This document shows, piece after piece, positions 40,210 through 51,107 of a stretch of 64,000 nucleotides of DNA. The DNA comes from a virus. The stretch lies in the IMG/VR virus record IMGVR_UViG_3300030116_004952, positions 764 to 64,763 of that record. One strand, written 5' to 3'. Made by a program: the position numbers and the translations under genes. How positions within the stretch are numbered: position 1 is the first letter of the stretch; each line of letters begins with the position of its first letter. The notes under the pieces were generated by a model. That model worked only from the letters and a program-made list of their open reading frames with translations, had not been told where the DNA came from and did not search any database.

Positions 40210-40418
40210 TCTAGCACCGCCAAAATCCAATCGTCATGAATAAATTTAAATTCACCTAAATCTTCAATAGGTTTGAGTAAAGAAAAAACAACACGTTTTC
40301 CGACAATATCTTTATTCATACTATCTACAACAACACCGACATTGTTCTCCTTTACAATAATTTGACCTACTGTATCTTCATCCTGCATTACTACTGAATA
40401 CTTTCCGTATGCTTTCAT
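40206..40418 (-). CDS. groES: GroES-like co-chaperonin
   Basis: 70 residues, shorter than GroES (about 95). The second half reads like the GroES barrel (GVVVDSMNKDIVGKRVVF, then FIHDDWILAVLE compared with SESDILAIVE). A short loop with GQIIV may be a reduced mobile loop with the hydrophobic triplet that binds GroEL. It lies one small gene ahead of GroEL. GGAGG overlaps the end of the upstream gene. Identity rests on the C-terminal pattern and the neighbour. Confidence 0.65.
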   Translation of the reverse strand: MKAYGKYSVVMQDEDTVGQIIVKENNVGVVVDSMNKDIVGKRVVFSLLKPIEDLGEFKFIHDDWILAVLE

Positions 40419-40630
40419 TCTTCTTCGCCTCCGATATAAACCCACTTCTTCTTTAGAGTCATATCGGTATAAGTCCAAATATGATTTTGATGAAACTTTT
40501 CTAGTTTCTTATCACGTTCAGTTTTCTTAGACCATGTTACTCCTTTTTGTGGACTACGAATGTTTTTGTCATTCGGGTGTTTTTCAAAGTGCTTCTCTCT
40601 CCTTTGTGCTACTGGTGATTTGCTTCTCAT
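40415..40630 (-). CDS. Small basic protein (71 aa)
   Basis: Very basic over residues 1-45 (PVAQRREKHFEKHPNDKN), ending WVYIGGEEE. The final residues coincide with the ribosome site of the GroES-like gene (GGAGGCGAAGAAGAATG). A nucleic-acid-binding role is possible. Confidence 0.55.
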   Translation of the reverse strand: MRSKSPVAQRREKHFEKHPNDKNIRSPQKGVTWSKKTERDKKLEKFHQNHIWTYTDMTLKKKWVYIGGEEE

Positions 40631-41130
40631 TCTTCTTCCTCCCTGTATTGATTTTGATAATAACTTTCACCCATATTACTTTCTTGAATAAAGAGAGTAT
40701 GTGGGTCAGTATTCTGCCAAAAACCAAAATGTTCTCGACCACCGAGAACATATGCTTCTTTCATCTTTGTTTGCCAAATATTAACAGTATTCCAATCAGT
40801 TCCGCTAAAGTATGCTTTACCAAAAGGATGAGTATGAATCCAACACTTAATCGGTAATTTCATTCCTGTTGGCTGTTGCATAAAAGATACAAAACCTGTT
40901 GAACCAGATGATACGAAACAATTATCATTATCATCAATTACAACTTGAACTTCAAGATGAGGTAGAATCTTTGTAGACATATCCCAAATAACACCAAAGA
41001 AACTTGTTTCTGCAAATGGTTCAAAATCTGAATGTTCATTATACCAATCAGTTCTAGCATTCCATGTTTCTTTAATTGATTCCTCAACGTAATCTCTTCG
41101 ATTTTTTAATTCTTCTTCATACGGTATCAT
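40627..41130 (-). CDS. JAMM/MPN metalloprotease (JAB domain)
   Basis: 167 residues. The JAMM signature is complete: a Glu in EPFAETSFFG (near 41), HTHPFGKAYFSGTDW (His 99 and 101, Ser 109, Asp 112). These bind zinc and cut isopeptide or linear bonds after Gly-Gly of ubiquitin-like proteins. It lies in one operon with an E1-like enzyme and 6 kb from a ubiquitin-like gene ending GG-Gln-Tyr. The start at 41130 has GGTGAAAATA. It lacks NlpC or tail domains, so a role in tail assembly, as in lambda K, is less likely. Confidence 0.85.
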   Translation of the reverse strand: MIPYEEELKNRRDYVEESIKETWNARTDWYNEHSDFEPFAETSFFGVIWDMSTKILPHLEVQVVIDDNDNCFVSSGSTGFVSFMQQPTGMKLPIKCWIHTHPFGKAYFSGTDWNTVNIWQTKMKEAYVLGGREHFGFWQNTDPHTLFIQESNMGESYYQNQYREEEE

Positions 41131-41866
41131 TATTTTCACCTACTAGTTTATCCAACTTTGCTTGGAGTTTTTGTTGCTTCTTCAACTTTCGACGTTCTCG
41201 ACGAGAAAGAGGTTTTTTCTTTGCTTCGGCCAAAAGACCTTCCATTTCCTTTGTATAATTTTCAAAGGCCAATTTCCACGACTCTTCAGACAATGTTAAA
41301 GTAGTGGCCATTGTTCTGTTTTGCGACTTAAGTTTGCTAACTTCTTTTCTTAGGCTAACAATACTTTCTTTCTTTTGCTTAAGAAGCCTTTCAAGTTCTG
41401 AGTAAGAAAGTTTTGATTCCTTCTTTGTTTTCTTAGAACCAGTCTTTTCTGTCTTTGCAGAAAGAACCTTCTTAAGTTCCTTACGTTCCTTGAGATACTT
41501 ATTCCAACAATCTTTACATTGTTTGTTTCCTTTCTTCTTAAAAGAAGGATACCAGTTTTTATCAGTCAAAGCAACGCCACAAGTTCTACAATTATTCTTC
41601 GTTGTAGAAATCTTTTTCTTTGAAGTCTTTTTCTTAGGCTTAGGGCTAGGCTTAGGCTTTTTACCAACTGCTCTTGTATTTGCTACAAGTTTAGCCCCAA
41701 CCTTATTCTTTCGCATGGAAGAAGCCTTTACTTCAACTGACTTGAAAGTTCTTACTTCTCCAAATTTTTCTACAAACTTCTTATAAATTGTCTTTGCAGG
41801 TTTGTTTAAATGCAAATACATAAATGCCGTTTGTTCTGCTGTCCATCTGTTATTTTGTTTTACCAT
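41117..41866 (-). CDS. Basic DNA-binding protein: SANT-like helix domain plus zinc knuckles
   Basis: 249 residues. Residues 6-50 look Myb/SANT-like (RWTAEQTAFMYLHLNKPAKTI). A Lys/Pro-rich linker leads to a Cys4 unit (CRTCG ... CKDCWNKYLKER). A coiled coil (SELERLLKQKKESIV...) and a basic tail follow. It resembles DNA-binding proteins rather than an enzyme and lies between the E1-like and JAMM genes. ATG 41866 has GGAGATGA; the in-frame ATG at 41875 is part of that site. Confidence 0.65.
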   Translation of the reverse strand: MVKQNNRWTAEQTAFMYLHLNKPAKTIYKKFVEKFGEVRTFKSVEVKASSMRKNKVGAKLVANTRAVGKKPKPSPKPKKKTSKKKISTTKNNCRTCGVALTDKNWYPSFKKKGNKQCKDCWNKYLKERKELKKVLSAKTEKTGSKKTKKESKLSYSELERLLKQKKESIVSLRKEVSKLKSQNRTMATTLTLSEESWKLAFENYTKEMEGLLAEAKKKPLSRRERRKLKKQQKLQAKLDKLVGENNDTV

Positions 41867-41879
41867 ATTTTTCATCTCC

Positions 41880-42440
41880 TTATAGGTTAATCATAACGAA
41901 ATCTTTTACTTCTTCTTCGTTAAAGAATTTTTGTGTCCATTGTGCGCCCATTCCTGCAATTACAATTTGCATGAATTGAACGTTTTTGTTAGTTCCATCC
42001 CAAGAATCTCCTTGACAACTGAAACTTCTATCATCTCCTGCTAATAGGCTATCATAAAGCATTGGGTCGGAAAGCGATGAAATCAAAGCCGAGTTCCTAC
42101 CCTGCGCTCTAAGGTCAAGCCACTTAAGACTTGTGTTGTATAACGTGCGTCTTACTCCTAAGTTATCTACACAACACACAACTAGGTCATATCCTTGCAT
42201 TTGTTTTTCTGAAAGAATCTTAAATGTATTACCAAAACCAACACTAGAGTATGTATCTCTCATAACTAATGCCTTATTCTGCCCAATATGACCTTTCTTA
42301 AAGTTTTGATAAGTTAAGTTCTTTTCTTCAACAACATCGGGGTCTGCGACTGTAATATCATATAGCCCAACTTTATCTAAGAACTGAATCAAAAACGAAC
42401 CAATTCCACCTGCTCCAATTACTAATATTTTTCTTTTCAT
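41880..42440 (-). CDS. E1-like adenylyltransferase (ThiF/MoeB/UBA family)
   Basis: 186 residues: the nucleotide loop VIGAGGIGSF (9-15), the strand end VADPDVVEEKNLTYQNF (Asp33, Asp35, Asn41, Gln45), IGQNKA, and VVCCVDNLGVRR. These are the conserved residues that adenylate the C-terminal glycine of ubiquitin-like and ThiS/MoaD-like proteins. It is shorter than ThiF (about 250) and lacks the Zn CxxC pairs. Cysteines at the VCCVD motif and in FSCQGD are candidate thiol sites. It is co-transcribed with TFB upstream and JAMM downstream. Confidence 0.85.
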   Translation of the reverse strand: MKRKILVIGAGGIGSFLIQFLDKVGLYDITVADPDVVEEKNLTYQNFKKGHIGQNKALVMRDTYSSVGFGNTFKILSEKQMQGYDLVVCCVDNLGVRRTLYNTSLKWLDLRAQGRNSALISSLSDPMLYDSLLAGDDRSFSCQGDSWDGTNKNVQFMQIVIAGMGAQWTQKFFNEEEVKDFVMINL

Positions 42441-42442
42441 AT

Positions 42443-43303
42443 TTATTCCTCTTCTTTTATGTTTATTAAATCTGCAAAGGTTTTACCTTTGACTTCTTTT
42501 GCTTTTGTTAAACCAATTAGTTCAAGAACTAATTGAGTTTGTTTCCATATTGCTACGGTGCTGAATCCTAACTTATCGGAAATCATTCCTCTATTGATAG
42601 GATGCCAATTGAACATATTTACTGTAATCCAGCAAATGCTCGCATCATAACTTTTTCCTTTGTTGAAGTGGCTATCTCGAATAACTCCTTCAAAGAATTC
42701 ATAGACTTCTGTTGCCTTTAGATGAAAGGCTAAGTCGTCTGTCAATTTAGAAAGTTCACGCTTAAATTTAAATAACGAGTTATCTCTTGTATTTGGTTTT
42801 CTATATTTGCGAATCTTTCTAATCATCTTATTTACTAGTTTAATACTACAATCAAACTCTTCGATAATATCTTTTGTTTTTACTGGCGTTCCATTTTCTT
42901 CAAGAAGAATATAGACCATCGCACTACATCTGACTTCAAGATTAGAAGCACCAAAAACATTCTTTTCATACAAAGACATATACATCATTTCAGCATCACG
43001 CTTTATTGATGAAAAGCCTAATCTTGCTAAAATCATATTTGTCATCACAAGTGCTTTGTTGATATGTGTAGACATATTATTGTTTAGTCCACCACGATTA
43101 AACTTATACGAACCCTTTCCTGTAATAATAGAACCTAATCTATTATTATCAGGATTTCTTACAAGTTCACCTTGTTTTGCAAGAATAACCTGTTCTTCAA
43201 AGGCATCATAAATTAATACAAGCCCACATTCAGAACATTCCTTTTCTCCTAGTCTTTCATTAAAGTTAAATTCCCTACATCCACATTCTTCACAACTTAT
43301 CAT
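42443..43303 (-). CDS. tfb: Transcription initiation factor TFB (TFIIB-like)
   Basis: 286 residues: an N-terminal zinc ribbon (CEECGCREF ... CSECGLVL, residues 4-31), a B-reader/linker segment with RNPDNNRLG SII region, and two cyclin-like helical repeats (residues 85-280). It binds TBP-promoter complexes and recruits RNA polymerase. A viral TFB could redirect host polymerase to viral promoters such as those near 56-60 kb. No viral TBP is recognised. The start overlaps the upstream stop (TAATG). Confidence 0.85.
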   Translation of the reverse strand: MISCEECGCREFNFNERLGEKECSECGLVLIYDAFEEQVILAKQGELVRNPDNNRLGSIITGKGSYKFNRGGLNNNMSTHINKALVMTNMILARLGFSSIKRDAEMMYMSLYEKNVFGASNLEVRCSAMVYILLEENGTPVKTKDIIEEFDCSIKLVNKMIRKIRKYRKPNTRDNSLFKFKRELSKLTDDLAFHLKATEVYEFFEGVIRDSHFNKGKSYDASICWITVNMFNWHPINRGMISDKLGFSTVAIWKQTQLVLELIGLTKAKEVKGKTFADLINIKEEE

Positions 43304-44553
43304 TATTCTTCCTCCAACGGATTTATTGCCATTGTTACAAGAGGGTTTCTAATAGAATCTGGTTCATTAGTTAAATACCTCTTAATTGTAGAAACTCTCG
43401 AAACTGTCATAGTATCATTTAGAAACGCTAATGCTCTTGCAACGAATTGGTCGCCAATTGAAGAACCACTTTGCATATTATCAATACAAATTGGCCCTTT
43501 CCAATGTCCACCTTGAGTTACCTTCAAATGCTTTCCATCATCGTCAAGAATTTTATCTCCGCTTTTAGTATAGCAATAAACTTCTTCACTTCCCCAAACA
43601 TAAGAACGAACATCTTGTGTTCCACTTGCTTTATAGCGAGAAGGTTCAATTCTCCAATCATATCCCTTTCCACGAACAAAGACTTCTTTAGGATAGCGAT
43701 TTCCTTCTTCATCGGGCTTATCCCAAGATACATAGATATTATCATATTTTTCATTTACCTCTCTAAGAAGTTCTAGTGCCTTATCTTCAACAATACCATC
43801 CTTTCGATTTTGTTTCAAAAACTCTACCATAAGTTTATATTCTGATTCAGAACATGGGCGACCCATTAATCTTTCAAAGAGAACTGATGGAGTTAAATCC
43901 TTCCAATGACCACGCTTCTTATTATGAACATATGAATTAACCATAGTATTTAGATTAGCAGTATTAATTGTTCCCCAAACACCATCAGAAATTTCTAATG
44001 CAAATTCATCTGAACCAATCTGTTCTACATTGATTAGAACATCATGTCGGTTATATCTCTCATCAAAGAAATGATATGCTAAGCGATTCTCCAAAACGTG
44101 TCGAATGTTTTCGGGCATATTCAGATAGTGATGCATAACAGATAATAGAACCGTCATATCCTTCTCAAAACAAGACTTGTAAATAAGTCTTGATAGTGTT
44201 TCACAAATAATGATTTTAGATTTCTCAATACCATTCAAAGAAAAACGATTATTCTTTCTTTGAATAAAGACAGGTAATGTTCCAATTGTTAAAAACAAAT
44301 CGAAGTCATTTCTGGTATTAATGTTCAAATAACTACCATTATATCTTCTCCTAGAACCCAATAAATTACTATTAACAAAATCAGCGATTGCTGAATTAGT
44401 TGGGTCTTTCTTATGTGTAAAACTTCTAGGAAATATCCTAACAACTCCATTATGGCGATGAAGATTATCACTATATATTACTGCTTCATAATTTAATTGT
44501 GTATCATCTACTTTTCCTATTCTTAATATTAATTTATTCTTTTCTTCTTCCAT
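43303..44553 (-). CDS. Unknown protein upstream of TFB (416 aa)
   Basis: A large mixed alpha/beta protein with no motif I recognise. It has Trp- and Arg-rich segments (GKGYDWRIEPSRYKAS) and ends INPLEEE. It is translated just ahead of TFB with overlapping start and stop. A transcription or DNA role is possible from position only. Confidence 0.7.
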   Translation of the reverse strand: MEEEKNKLILRIGKVDDTQLNYEAVIYSDNLHRHNGVVRIFPRSFTHKKDPTNSAIADFVNSNLLGSRRRYNGSYLNINTRNDFDLFLTIGTLPVFIQRKNNRFSLNGIEKSKIIICETLSRLIYKSCFEKDMTVLLSVMHHYLNMPENIRHVLENRLAYHFFDERYNRHDVLINVEQIGSDEFALEISDGVWGTINTANLNTMVNSYVHNKKRGHWKDLTPSVLFERLMGRPCSESEYKLMVEFLKQNRKDGIVEDKALELLREVNEKYDNIYVSWDKPDEEGNRYPKEVFVRGKGYDWRIEPSRYKASGTQDVRSYVWGSEEVYCYTKSGDKILDDDGKHLKVTQGGHWKGPICIDNMQSGSSIGDQFVARALAFLNDTMTVSRVSTIKRYLTNEPDSIRNPLVTMAINPLEEE

Positions 44554-44557
44554 ATTA

Positions 44558-44725
44558 TCACATCATATACATATTGTCATCTAATTTTTGTTCACATACT
44601 TCGTGAACTTGTCTCTTTATTTCTTCGGGAATCAATAATTGACCCCCACAAATACGGCAACGAGTTGCTACTCTTTTACCGTATGCTCTATGACTTTTAA
44701 CAAAGTCTGGATTTTTTTCTTTCAT
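44558..44725 (-). CDS. Small zinc-site protein (55 aa)
   Basis: Contains CRICGGQ and HEVC (residues 23-44), a probable C-x2-C ... H/C zinc site. It overlaps the end of the 122-residue gene and is followed by GTGATAAT and the 416-residue gene. Confidence 0.55.
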   Translation of the reverse strand: MKEKNPDFVKSHRAYGKRVATRCRICGGQLLIPEEIKRQVHEVCEQKLDDNMYMM

Positions 44726-45059
44726 CTTTCATACCTCTATATTTATTATTTATTTCATCTATATAATTTATATCATTATTACGGTAATAAGAAAACATTT
44801 CTACAACGTCTTTGAGTTCATCTTCAAGGAAAAGAACAAAGCCAACCTCTTTGGCTTCGTCAATATCCCACAAACACTTGTGGTAAAGCACATTATATAA
44901 CCTTACCTTTCTATCATGTTCATTTTCTAACTGGTCGCAGACATTGAATGTTTTTTCTAATCTTTCTTGAGATTCTAAGGAGAATCTCTTTGCATTCAAT
45001 TGAACATACGCTTTGAAATCAGCGTAAGAAATGTTTCTTAAAGCCCGATTAGATTTCAC
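44697..45059 (-). CDS. Unknown helical protein (about 120 aa)
   Basis: A helical protein (YADFKAYVQLNAKRFSLESQ) read from GTG 45059, with AGGTGGAC upstream overlapping the end of the reductase gene. An in-frame GTG at 45074 is an alternative. No family is recognised. Confidence 0.5.
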   Translation of the reverse strand: MKSNRALRNISYADFKAYVQLNAKRFSLESQERLEKTFNVCDQLENEHDRKVRLYNVLYHKCLWDIDEAKEVGFVLFLEDELKDVVEMFSYYRNNDINYIDEINNKYRGMKDERKKSRLC

Positions 45060-46908
45060 ATTGTCCACCTGCACAGGCTAATTCACCCGATAGGTTTGTA
45101 TTATCTTGGCTTTCAATTACTTGAGTCAAGTCAATTTCAGATAAATTACCTACAAGTTCTTCATACTCTTTCTTTGTAATTGTTTCAAATGGGGCTTGTT
45201 TGTATGTTCCACCATCATAAGGTAATACAGACAATCCATTGTAATAGTGTCTATTCATCCACATCCATTCTCCAACATCATCCCATTCATTCTCTTTAAT
45301 TGAGATTGTTGCAGAAACATTATGTGTATTCAATCCATCCCTATGACCTTCACGAACCCAACGAATGCTAAAGTTCTTAACTCGGTCTAATAAATCAAAT
45401 ACATTTTCTGTTCTAATTGTTGCATCAGTTGGTGCTTTTTGAGGAATAGAAATAACTGCTTGTTCTGTTGGGTTAAAGTATTCATCTTCAACTAATTCTG
45501 GATGATGAACTGCCAAATAAGAATATATCGCTTCATTCTTCCCAACTCTTACTCTACGAATGTAATACTTATCATGCCATGCATGAATACCGCTTGAAGT
45601 TCCTAATACAAGAGAAGTTGTTCCTGCTGGTTTTACACAAGTAACACGACTTGCTTCATTAATACCAATAATAGTTGCGACTCTTTTATTTTCCATTTTA
45701 GCAGCAAACGCAGCCATTTCTAAATCTAATTTTTCAACAACTCCAGATGCAATACCTGTCATTGATACTCCAAGTAATGAATCTTTTTCACTATTCTTTT
45801 GCCAAATTTCTCTTAGATAATGAAAGTCAGTATATCCTGCCTGTAATGTTCCTAAAAACGAAGCAGCCTTAACTCTCGCTTCTAAATCAAATTGGTCAGT
45901 AACATTTGAAGCATTTACTTCTGTAAGATTACAGAATTGATATGGTCTTAATGCAATTTCACAGCAAGGATTAGTTCCCCAATCCTTATCATTACTGAAA
46001 TAAATAGCGGGTTCTCCCGAACCACTATGCTGAATACGTTCCCATAATTCCATGAAAAACTCCTTTGTTACTCGATGACGAAGAATAACTGCTGAATTGT
46101 TTGCTCTACCACGTTGAGCATTGTTTTCCCACCAATTACCAGATTTACAAGCAATCATATCTGTATCATCAGCACTAAATAGGCTAATCATAGCGGCTCT
46201 ACGAATTCCACCCGCTAATACTGCATCAGCCAAATGACACATAATATCGTGAACTTGAATTGATTTTAGTTTTTCACCAATAGGAATGTTTTGAAGAATA
46301 CCTTCAATTTTAACTAAACATTCTCTTAATGGCTGAAAACCTGGTGCTTTTCCACCACTAGTTCTTAATAGAGAACCTTTTGGTCTAATATCTGAATAAT
46401 CAAATACTGGAGAAGAAGAACGAACACCTGTATAGCATTCTAATAGAACTTTAACAGAATCAGCCCAACCTTCAATTGAATCAGCAATTAAGTATCTTCG
46501 AGTTCGATTAGGATTAGGTTGAACAATTTCTGGTAATTGTTCAATATGATGTCTTTGAACAGAATAACCTACACCTGTTCCTCCTAACAAAAGAAACATA
46601 CTTTCTGAAAAAGAAACAATTGAATCAATTGGTAAGTATGCACAATTGTAGACTCTATTCGGAGAAATTTCAATAGGCTTTCCACCGAATTGCATAGAAC
46701 GCATAGAGGGCAATACTTTCTTAGTAATTACAAAGTTATCATAAACATCTCTAATTTCTTTTTCTAAATCTGGATATTTCTTTATGTGCATATCCATATT
46801 TCTTTGAACAATTTCAGTCCATGTTTCTCTTCTTTGCAGTTCTTCTTGATACCGAGCATATTTCATATGCACCGTAATGTCTGATAAAATCTCTTTTTCT
46901 GTCGTCAT
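45049..46908 (-). CDS. nrdJ: Class II (B12-dependent) ribonucleotide reductase
   Basis: 619 residues, the size of monomeric class II enzymes. Seen are SMRSMQFGGKP and NCAYLP near the start, FLLLGGTGVGYSVQ, PCCEIALRPYQFCNL (active-site region), and a C-terminal redox pair CAGGQCEI. It turns ribonucleotides into deoxyribonucleotides with adenosylcobalamin and needs no oxygen or small subunit. It depends on cobalamin from the host. ATG 46908 has AGGTGTTAATT; the upstream frame to 46917 is not needed. Confidence 0.9.
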   Translation of the reverse strand: MTTEKEILSDITVHMKYARYQEELQRRETWTEIVQRNMDMHIKKYPDLEKEIRDVYDNFVITKKVLPSMRSMQFGGKPIEISPNRVYNCAYLPIDSIVSFSESMFLLLGGTGVGYSVQRHHIEQLPEIVQPNPNRTRRYLIADSIEGWADSVKVLLECYTGVRSSSPVFDYSDIRPKGSLLRTSGGKAPGFQPLRECLVKIEGILQNIPIGEKLKSIQVHDIMCHLADAVLAGGIRRAAMISLFSADDTDMIACKSGNWWENNAQRGRANNSAVILRHRVTKEFFMELWERIQHSGSGEPAIYFSNDKDWGTNPCCEIALRPYQFCNLTEVNASNVTDQFDLEARVKAASFLGTLQAGYTDFHYLREIWQKNSEKDSLLGVSMTGIASGVVEKLDLEMAAFAAKMENKRVATIIGINEASRVTCVKPAGTTSLVLGTSSGIHAWHDKYYIRRVRVGKNEAIYSYLAVHHPELVEDEYFNPTEQAVISIPQKAPTDATIRTENVFDLLDRVKNFSIRWVREGHRDGLNTHNVSATISIKENEWDDVGEWMWMNRHYYNGLSVLPYDGGTYKQAPFETITKKEYEELVGNLSEIDLTQVIESQDNTNLSGELACAGGQCEI

Positions 46909-46910
46909 AA

Positions 46911-47288
46911 TTAACACCTTAGTTTTGTGGTTTTTGGCAATTTATCTAAAGTAGTGAAAGAATACATCCATTCACCATTCTTAAAAACAACCCATTCCTT
47001 TTCTTCTATAAATTGCCATTCATCGAATGAGTTTATTACATTGTTTCCAAACTCTTTGATTAGTTCGGATATTGAATTGAATATTTTATTTTGATATTTA
47101 ACAACAGTAGTTCCTAAACTTCTAATTTGAGAACCTTTAGGAGATACTGCTATAATTGATTCGTCGTCGTAAAAATCTGCTTTAAACACAGCAACATTAT
47201 TTATTACAGTTGGATTCATTAACTTCCAACCATTAATTTGCATCATCATTGTTAGGGCTTCTTCGGATATGAAAGATTTTAAATCCAT
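46911..47288 (-). CDS. Unknown protein (125 aa), first gene after a terminator
   Basis: Read from ATG 47288 (MDLKSFISEEALTMMMQING). A longer frame to 47396 runs through the terminator hairpin and is rejected. It looks like a small alpha/beta protein with repeated Trp-containing strands near the end. Its position just after a terminator suggests a new transcript starts here, possibly leaderless, as no ribosome site is visible. Confidence 0.55.
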   Translation of the reverse strand: MDLKSFISEEALTMMMQINGWKLMNPTVINNVAVFKADFYDDESIIAVSPKGSQIRSLGTTVVKYQNKIFNSISELIKEFGNNVINSFDEWQFIEEKEWVVFKNGEWMYSFTTLDKLPKTTKLRC

Positions 47289-47302
47289 AATAATCAACAA
47301 CG

Positions 47303-47343
47303 AAAAAAAAGGGGGAGAAGAACCCCAACAGTTCTTCCCCCCC
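47303..47343 (-). terminator. Terminator splitting the minus-strand region
   Basis: On the minus strand, a stem of GGGGG(GG)AAGAAC and GTTCTTCTCCCCC around TGTTGGG is followed by eight T. It should stop transcripts coming from the ubiquitin-like gene side before the reductase operon. One small bulge interrupts the stem. Confidence 0.75.
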
Positions 47344-47376
47344 AAAAGTGCGTGGCTTTGGTATATTGAAATTAAC

Positions 47377-47583
47377 TCAATATTGACCTCCAACAATTGC
47401 AGGGGTTAAATCGACGCTTGTAACGTCATCCCATGCAATTTCCCGAATTTGCTCTCTCGCAACCATTTCACCATTGATAAAGACCCAATGGGTTGGATGG
47501 GTGTCAATTTGTTCAATTACCTCGCTTTCCGATAAGGTTAGCGTTGTGTGTCCTGTTTCATTCAAAATTGTCAGCGTTATCAT
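47377..47583 (-). CDS. Ubiquitin-like (ThiS/MoaD/beta-grasp) protein ending GG-Gln-Tyr
   Basis: 68 residues. It begins ITLTILNETGHTTLTL, a beta hairpin as in ubiquitin-fold proteins. The segment WVFINGEMVAREQ then resembles ThiS/MoaD (V-NGE-V-R), and the end is VDLTPAIVGGQY: a Gly65-Gly66 pair with two extra residues, as in ubiquitin precursors that need trimming. GGAAGTGATAAT precedes the ATG. E1-like and JAMM enzymes are encoded 5 and 6.5 kb downstream on the same strand. It could be a sulfur carrier or a protein modifier. Confidence 0.7.
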   Translation of the reverse strand: MITLTILNETGHTTLTLSESEVIEQIDTHPTHWVFINGEMVAREQIREIAWDDVTSVDLTPAIVGGQY

Positions 47584-48111: not shown

Positions 48112-48134
48112 ATTTATTTCTCCTTGTGAATAAG

Positions 48135-48206
48135 CGGGCATAACAGGAATCGAACCCGTATCTTCGGCTTAGAAGGCCAAAATGCTATCCATTACACCAT
48201 ATGCCC
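48135..48206 (-). tRNA. tRNA-Arg (anticodon UCU)
   Basis: 72 bases: a perfect seven-pair acceptor stem (GGGCATA with TATGCCC), a D-arm, anticodon stem TTGGC/GCCGA with loop CTTCTAA, and T-arm ACGGG-TTCGATT-CCTGT. No CCA is encoded and no intron is seen. It reads AGA, one of the most used codons in this AT-rich genome, and probably supplements the host pool. Confidence 0.9.
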
Positions 48207-50783: not shown

Positions 50784-51107
50784 TCAGAAAGATTTACCAT
50801 GCATAAATTCACGACTGGTGTTATATTCCACCTTTGCAAGTATAGCACCTGCAATATCTAAATCTTTGCCAAACGCATAATCCATAATACGGATAACTGC
50901 ATCGGCAAGTTCTTCTTCAAGATTACTAAACTCAATAATCTTATTTGAGGAAGGATTACCTTCACGTAAAGCCTCTAAAGCCTCACTAATCTCAGCATGA
51001 ATTAAAGCCATTCTTTCGCCATCATTTACTTCATCTTTCCAGAATCCATGATTAACTGCGTTTTTGTAGACTTCTTTTGCTAATTTATTCCATTCCTTCT
51101 CAAACAT
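50784..51107 (-). CDS. mazG: MazG-like nucleotide pyrophosphohydrolase
   Basis: 107 residues from ATG 51107, overlapping the upstream stop. It has the EISEALEALREG helix and EEELADAVIRIMDYA, matching the ExxE ... ExxD metal-binding pattern of MazG/MazG-like proteins. These hydrolyse (d)NTPs or alarmones; viral versions are thought to adjust host nucleotide signals. Pairs logically with the class II reductase in nucleotide supply. Confidence 0.8.
   Translation of the reverse strand: MFEKEWNKLAKEVYKNAVNHGFWKDEVNDGERMALIHAEISEALEALREGNPSSNKIIEFSNLEEELADAVIRIMDYAFGKDLDIAGAILAKVEYNTSREFMHGKSF

Follow-up and report, generated by a model that had tools for sequence, protein, structure and literature searches.

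Protein modification by the small archaeal modifier proteins of Haloferax (SAMPylation) relies on one E1 enzyme and on no conserved E2 or E3 (PMC4895103). The pathway comprises the tags SAMP1-3, the E1 UbaA and the deconjugase HvJAMM1, whose cut in a SAMP1 fusion falls precisely behind the last Gly (PMC4443979), and one of its targets in Haloferax, the TATA-binding protein TBP2, is degraded by the proteasome (PMC4895103). Here we describe a comparable set of genes in a window of 64,000 nucleotides (positions 764 to 64,763 of the virus record IMGVR_UViG_3300030116_004952), which represents most of this 76.5-kb record. The minus strand of the window encodes a ubiquitin-like protein (Ubl) of 68 amino acids (47377-47583), an E1-like enzyme of 186 amino acids (41880-42440) and a JAMM protease of 167 amino acids (40627-41130); all three open reading frames lie where an initial annotation of this DNA had placed them. 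The trio probably constitutes a virus-encoded, reversible, E2-less protein-tagging system resembling SAMPylation. As in Haloferax (PMC4443979, PMC4895103), a beta-grasp tag ending in GG is combined with a single ThiF-type E1 and a JAMM protein, the deconjugase of the archaeal pathway; no E2 or E3 was recognised in the virus, the E2 searches being silent in their controls as well. The viral set differs in being gathered in one compact block, whereas in archaea a JAB gene is seldom found in linkage with a Ubl gene (PMC2948915). Furthermore, the viral tag has no detected sequence similarity to known Ubl families and is in most relatives made with variable residues past GG, and the viral E1 consists of the adenylation core only, without zinc Cys pairs and with NLxYQ instead of NLxRQ.

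Bacterial Ubl-E1-JAB operons (types 6a-6e, Iyer et al. 2006; Bil and PRTRC-like sets included) share with the viral locus the adjacency of E1 and JAB, an own Ubl and the lack of rhodanese or sulfur-metabolism neighbours. In contrast to them, the viral set has no recognised E2-like or helical partner and is located in the replication region of a lytic-type archaeal virus. The Cap2/Cap3 pair of CBASS also combines an E1 with a JAB protein, and the Cap2 E1 is among the nearest solved E1 structures; the viral E1, limited to its adenylation core, has no E2 domain and is thus no E1-E2 fusion of the CBASS type, and a dedicated Ubl is present. No CD-NTase was seen, although no search aimed at CD-NTase was made. 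In crAss-like phages the genes for gp76 (ThiF) and gp77 (JAB) are adjacent and, like the viral set, form part of the replication module, with a B12-type ribonucleotide reductase (RNR) nearby, and the likeness extends to the JAMM motif (HSHNNMATFFSGTD resembles HTHPFGxAYFSGTD). Nevertheless, the crAss E1 has 383 amino acids with an extra N-terminal region, the JAB protein has 414 amino acids, E1 identity is only 25-33%, and no small GG-ended Ubl gene was seen among the gp76/gp77 neighbours. The N-terminal region of gp76 of crAss001 (L228, 7506-8657) contains the sequence QTAIVGGSTY, which is similar to the PAIVGG-QY end of the viral Ubl, possibly by chance.

The initial annotation had considered a stand-alone set of this kind in an archaeal tailed virus as undescribed. 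This holds for a part of the set only. A ThiF/MoeB gene, probably the same E1, was listed in the RaFAH study of 2021 among the genes prevalent in viruses predicted to infect archaea, with a link to ubiquitination, and the main text of that study is silent on Ubl, JAMM, their linkage and a processing signature (PMC8276007). Thus, ThiF in archaeal viruses and the adjacent ThiF and JAB genes of crAss-like phages were already known, while the tag, JAMM and the linkage in an archaeal virus group are apparently new. Priority is claimed within limits: no mention of Ubl, ThiF or JAB was found in the magrovirus literature, in a search that was incomplete for key papers.

Profile searches with ubiquitin, ThiS and MoaD, which the initial annotation had proposed, gave no sequence match for the window Ubl or for 46 members of its family. 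The beta-grasp fold assumed there was supported by structure prediction. An AlphaFold2 model built with 46 homologues (pLDDT 86.2, pTM 0.68) shows strands at residues 2-8 and 11-17, a helix at 19-28, strands at 32-36 and 39-41, a short helix at 43-46 and a last strand at 56-61, after which the GG tail is disordered. Ubiquitin, ISG15, NEDD8 and SUMO were the top PDB matches of this model in Foldseek, with MoaD and Mth1743 ranking lower; the matches are modest (E ~5e-3, prob 0.98, TM 0.46). The 68-residue protein is therefore predicted to adopt the ubiquitin/ThiS beta-grasp fold. V64, G65 and G66 are invariant in the 46-sequence alignment, and the VGG ending is not due to chance.

An indication of a modifier comes from the C-terminus. 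Among about 150 viral loci the Ubl end AIVGG is essentially fixed and the GG end is retained in every relative, while 27 tail variants of 0-2 residues (absence of a tail included) follow VGG. Parsimony on an E1 tree of 76 distinct rows gave no change for Ala62, Val64, Gly65 and Gly66 (codons of Gly65-Gly66 at 47386-47391) and a single change for Ile63, compared with at least 34 and at least 23 changes at the two positions after GG, which are Gln67 and Tyr68 in the window (47380-47385). The same pattern is seen at short distance: the 66-residue Ubl body of the window differs from those of two relatives (L002 and L003) by 9 and 11 synonymous codons and by no nonsynonymous codon, and right after GG the Gln is replaced by Leu in L002 and by Ser in L003. 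The tail overlaps no other minus-strand gene of the called set. The Ubl body is under purifying selection and the tail is free. The divergent relatives L312-L315 and L148 also keep AIVGG and a tail (CY, QN). Judged from these sequences, a fixed GG followed by a hypervariable tail marks the protein as a modifier that undergoes processing, because a free tail would be expected if everything past GG is removed; it also argues against an incidental GG.

According to the initial annotation the GG-QY end needs trimming by JAMM. The invariant GG beside the hypervariable tail agrees with trimming, which nevertheless does not account for the whole role of JAMM. Tails were gained or lost in about four events on the E1 tree, and JAMM is present in 31/31 loci with a tail-less Ubl (17 after removal of duplicates). 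Since viruses whose Ubl already ends in GG keep JAMM, trimming of precursors cannot be the only task of this protein. Its retention in these loci is most simply explained by deconjugation; cleavage of an adduct between Ubl and a metabolite, of which CysO/Mec+ is an example, would be another possible one.

The JAMM/MPN+ metalloprotease (reading frame open up to a GTG at 41139) is complete, as had been annotated. The window protein alone matches Pfam Prok-JAB only weakly (0.0057, below the cut-off), and 45/46 of its relatives match this family, the best with 2.8e-5. Its motif HTHPFGKAYFSGTD (40795-40836) comprises H99, H101, S109 and D112, which are invariant in the JAMM alignment together with Glu60 (40951-40953), by analogy to the JAMM family the candidate catalytic base. 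An AlphaFold model (pLDDT 84.8, pTM 0.83) retrieved mostly JAMM/MPN proteins in Foldseek (CSN5, Sst2/AMSH, Rpn11, PfJAMM1), and the family profile matched AMSH-like proteases in the PDB. The motif is kept in all of L312-L318 and in L148.

The assignment of the E1-like protein to the ThiF/MoeB adenylyltransferase superfamily was likewise confirmed (Pfam ThiF, 1.2e-18). ThiF, MoeB and UbaA are among its profile matches, and the scores for the UbaA orthologue profile NF047750 (37 bits, cut-off 450) and for the PRTRC-type ThiF profile TIGR03736 (45 bits, cut-off 144.75) are far below the cut-offs. The residues of the ATP site are conserved. The nucleotide-binding loop IGAGGIG (residues 8-14, 42399-42419) is invariant or nearly so in the E1 alignment, and N41, K56, D92, N93 and Cys142 are invariant. 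C90 and C142 are the only invariant cysteines. Cys142 (42015-42017) lies in the sequence SCQ, which is kept in all of L312-L318 and in L148, and is the candidate thioester or persulfide cysteine. Neither a zinc CxxC pair of the ThiF/MoeB type nor a rhodanese domain is present in this E1.

The three genes are inherited together. None of the three findings that would have spoken against the initial annotation was thus made: a beta-grasp fold is predicted, no relative has lost GG, and the genes occur jointly. E1 and JAMM were found in 63/63 Ubl loci with at least 9 kb of downstream sequence and Ubl in 116/116 E1 loci with at least 8 kb of upstream sequence; the loci were gathered by Ubl, E1 or RNR and several share contigs, so that these counts are not independent. 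Apparent gaps in JAMM turned out to be truncated loci or abutting E1/JAMM pairs. Of 19 long contigs chosen by their DNA polymerase gene (PolB), 17 contain both Ubl and E1; neither gene is present on the remaining two, which end short of the region. In annotated phages tblastn revealed no Ubl at E<=0.1, and no JAMM was found in them. Among prokaryote genomes Ubl occurred only on three contigs (L146, L147, L148) of one metagenome-assembled genome named 'Altibacter'. L148, the sole contig of these long enough to judge, carries the whole trio, and this assembly therefore probably contains binned magrovirus contigs.

We infer the following course of adenylation, trimming, conjugation and deconjugation. 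Ubl would be made as a precursor with a tail of 0-2 residues past GG, JAMM would trim the tail, and E1 would adenylate Gly66 with ATP. E1 would then pass Ubl, possibly via a thioester at Cys142, to lysine residues in proteins of the virus or the host, and JAMM would later cut the isopeptide bond, so that the tag is recycled or its effect reversed. By analogy, factors that serve transcription or replication in the host would be plausible targets, because E1 and JAMM share a block with a viral TFB and because TBP2 is a SAMP target. A dual role in tagging and sulfur transfer, as in Urm1 and the SAMPs, would also be possible. More tentatively, and with slightly less than even confidence, we suggest that an abundant group of marine archaeal viruses runs a complete E2-less, reversible Ubl pathway with a processed tag for host remodelling; the virus, which supplies a TFB of its own, might for example tag the transcription factors of its host.

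Several points weigh against a tagging system. No E2 was recognised; searches with PF00179 and PF14461 found nothing, but their controls were silent as well, so that this negative carries no information. The NLxRQ motif with Arg is the usual form of E1 proteins and was also seen in one of our alignments, whereas Tyr44 is invariant at this position in the viral E1, whose activity could therefore differ. The Ubl gene and the E1 and JAMM genes may belong to separate transcripts, and host enzymes could supply partners for sulfur transfer. Viruses usually hijack or block the ubiquitin-like system of the host, while in this case tag, E1 and protease seem to be supplied jointly by a virus of prokaryotes, in a trio conserved in its form across a widespread marine virus group. 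If this holds, it becomes possible to test directly whether an archaeal virus tags proteins, and the trio would offer a minimal three-protein model of Ubl conjugation without E2 and E3, a step thought to be akin to the origin of the eukaryotic system.

A role as sulfur carrier, which the initial annotation had named as an alternative, appears rather unlikely. E1 would in this case produce a Ubl thiocarboxylate, host sulfurtransferases and NcsA/TtuA-like enzymes would thiolate tRNA or make cofactors, and JAMM would only mature Ubl or remove adducts as in CysO/Mec+. Such a role would agree with the presence of ThiF, MoeB and UbaA among the E1 matches, with the tRNA-Arg(TCT) and tRNA-Leu(TAA) genes of the virus, the former about 0.5 kb upstream of Ubl in the window and near Ubl in many relatives, and with the dual role often reported for archaeal Ubls (PMC11323500, PMC2948915). 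Nevertheless, several Ubl-keeping loci have no tRNA gene, E1 has neither a rhodanese domain nor zinc CxxC pairs, and none of the 46 Ubl members matches the ThiS/MoaD family by sequence. The partner families are also absent: PP-loop thiolase (PF01171), PAPS reductase (PF01507), desulfurase (PF00266) and rhodanese (PF00581) were found in none of 14 magrovirus records, whereas 13-14 of 14 control genomes gave matches in the same searches. Iyer et al. 2006 (PMC1779556) found no JAB in the thiamine and molybdenum cofactor operons that they surveyed; in the operon types for which they proposed a signalling role, E1 sits beside JAB and never occurs with rhodanese.

It is improbable that the system mainly disrupts the SAMP pathway of the host, with JAMM stripping host tags off viral proteins and the viral Ubl and E1 as decoys. 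Many predicted deSAMPylases occur in archaeal Borg elements, where they are suggested to act against host tagging, and bacteria tag phage proteins by the Bil system to block assembly, as cited in the same report (PMC12660748). However, a decoy would need neither the catalytic residues of E1 nor a strictly invariant GG, and all three genes are inherited together. Two further explanations have a very small probability and were rejected. One is that the 68-residue protein is no modifier at all, but an inhibitor of the host Lon protease like PinA. In fact, the Pfam family PF10465 recognises 22/46 relatives at E<=0.1, with 1.4e-4 as the best value, and a profile-profile comparison (hhalign) with seven PinA proteins gave a probability of 69% for Ubl residues 9-59. 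The match nevertheless excludes AIVGG, the most conserved part, which PinA does not possess; the window protein scores 15.9 bits against a gathering score of 27, and the profile comparison loses its significance after correction for the 24,736 families searched. Moreover, a PinA-like function leaves unexplained both the kept GG with its free tail and the co-inheritance with E1 and JAMM. The other is a role in tail assembly similar to lambda TAPI/TAPK, as tailed phages are known to possess Ubl and JAB pairs of this kind (PMC1779556) and the BFVD matches include the tip attachment protein J. This is contradicted by the gene location, since the trio belongs to the replication module, with TFB, RNR and GroEL as neighbours, and the structural genes occupy the other strand; moreover, the trio has an E1 and no NlpC domain.

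The window virus is a magrovirus-like tailed virus of the order Magrovirales, an assignment based on comparison with the published description (PMC10768690). The gene layout fits the one published for magroviruses (Aoguangviridae and kin): the minus strand carries the replication genes (split PolB, RFC, DNA ligase, ERCC4 nuclease, Cas4-like exonuclease, SF1 helicase) as well as a TFB-like protein, a B12-type RNR and GroEL, and the plus strand carries the structural genes including that for a tail tube protein. Relatives of about 95 kb have the same layout. Viruses of marine group II archaea, clades 2-4, carry a group I chaperonin (PMC5332604). The host probably belongs to the Poseidoniales (archaea).

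The TFB-like gene (42443-43303, minus strand; weak Zn-ribbon TFIIB match) lies directly upstream of E1 and precedes it in all family members whose locus extends far enough; it is a conserved neighbour rather than a demonstrated part of the pathway. The initial annotation had assigned E1, JAMM and TFB to one operon, which agrees with the common block found here. The Ubl gene is located in the same block, and because a strong terminator-like hairpin (14 pairs followed by T8; 47311-47343, minus strand) directly follows its 3' end, Ubl may have a transcript of its own, differing in amount from that of the genes that run from RNR to TFB-E1-JAMM. Such terminator-like sites number 18 in the region against 3.9 in shuffled sequences. 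A tRNA-Arg(TCT) gene (48134-48206, minus strand) is found close to Ubl, and many relatives have tRNA-Arg(TCT) as well; in several others, whose loci retain the trio, it was not found there. In the window a gene for 252 amino acids separates E1 and JAMM, which is absent where the two adjoin directly. This gene and RNR vary across the loci while the trio is constant, and since some loci without RNR in the block retain the trio, the latter is not an RNR accessory.

A 416-residue protein (43303-44553, minus strand) with the motifs EISDGVW and GPICIDN is conserved upstream of TFB in relatives; it matched no known family and is a candidate partner or target of the system. JAMM is followed in most relatives by a 71-residue protein with an HPND motif (40415-40630, minus strand in the window). 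Many consecutive genes between 38280 and 50072 (minus strand) terminate in EEE, because the GGAGGA ribosome-binding site of the next gene overlaps the stop codon, indicating tight translational coupling; a functional tail formed by the EEE end of JAMM and its neighbours was therefore rejected. A 107-residue protein with a weak MazG match (50784-51107, minus strand) shows 92-94% identity in distant magroviruses, which is above that of all other proteins compared, and in some relatives its gene separates TFB from E1.

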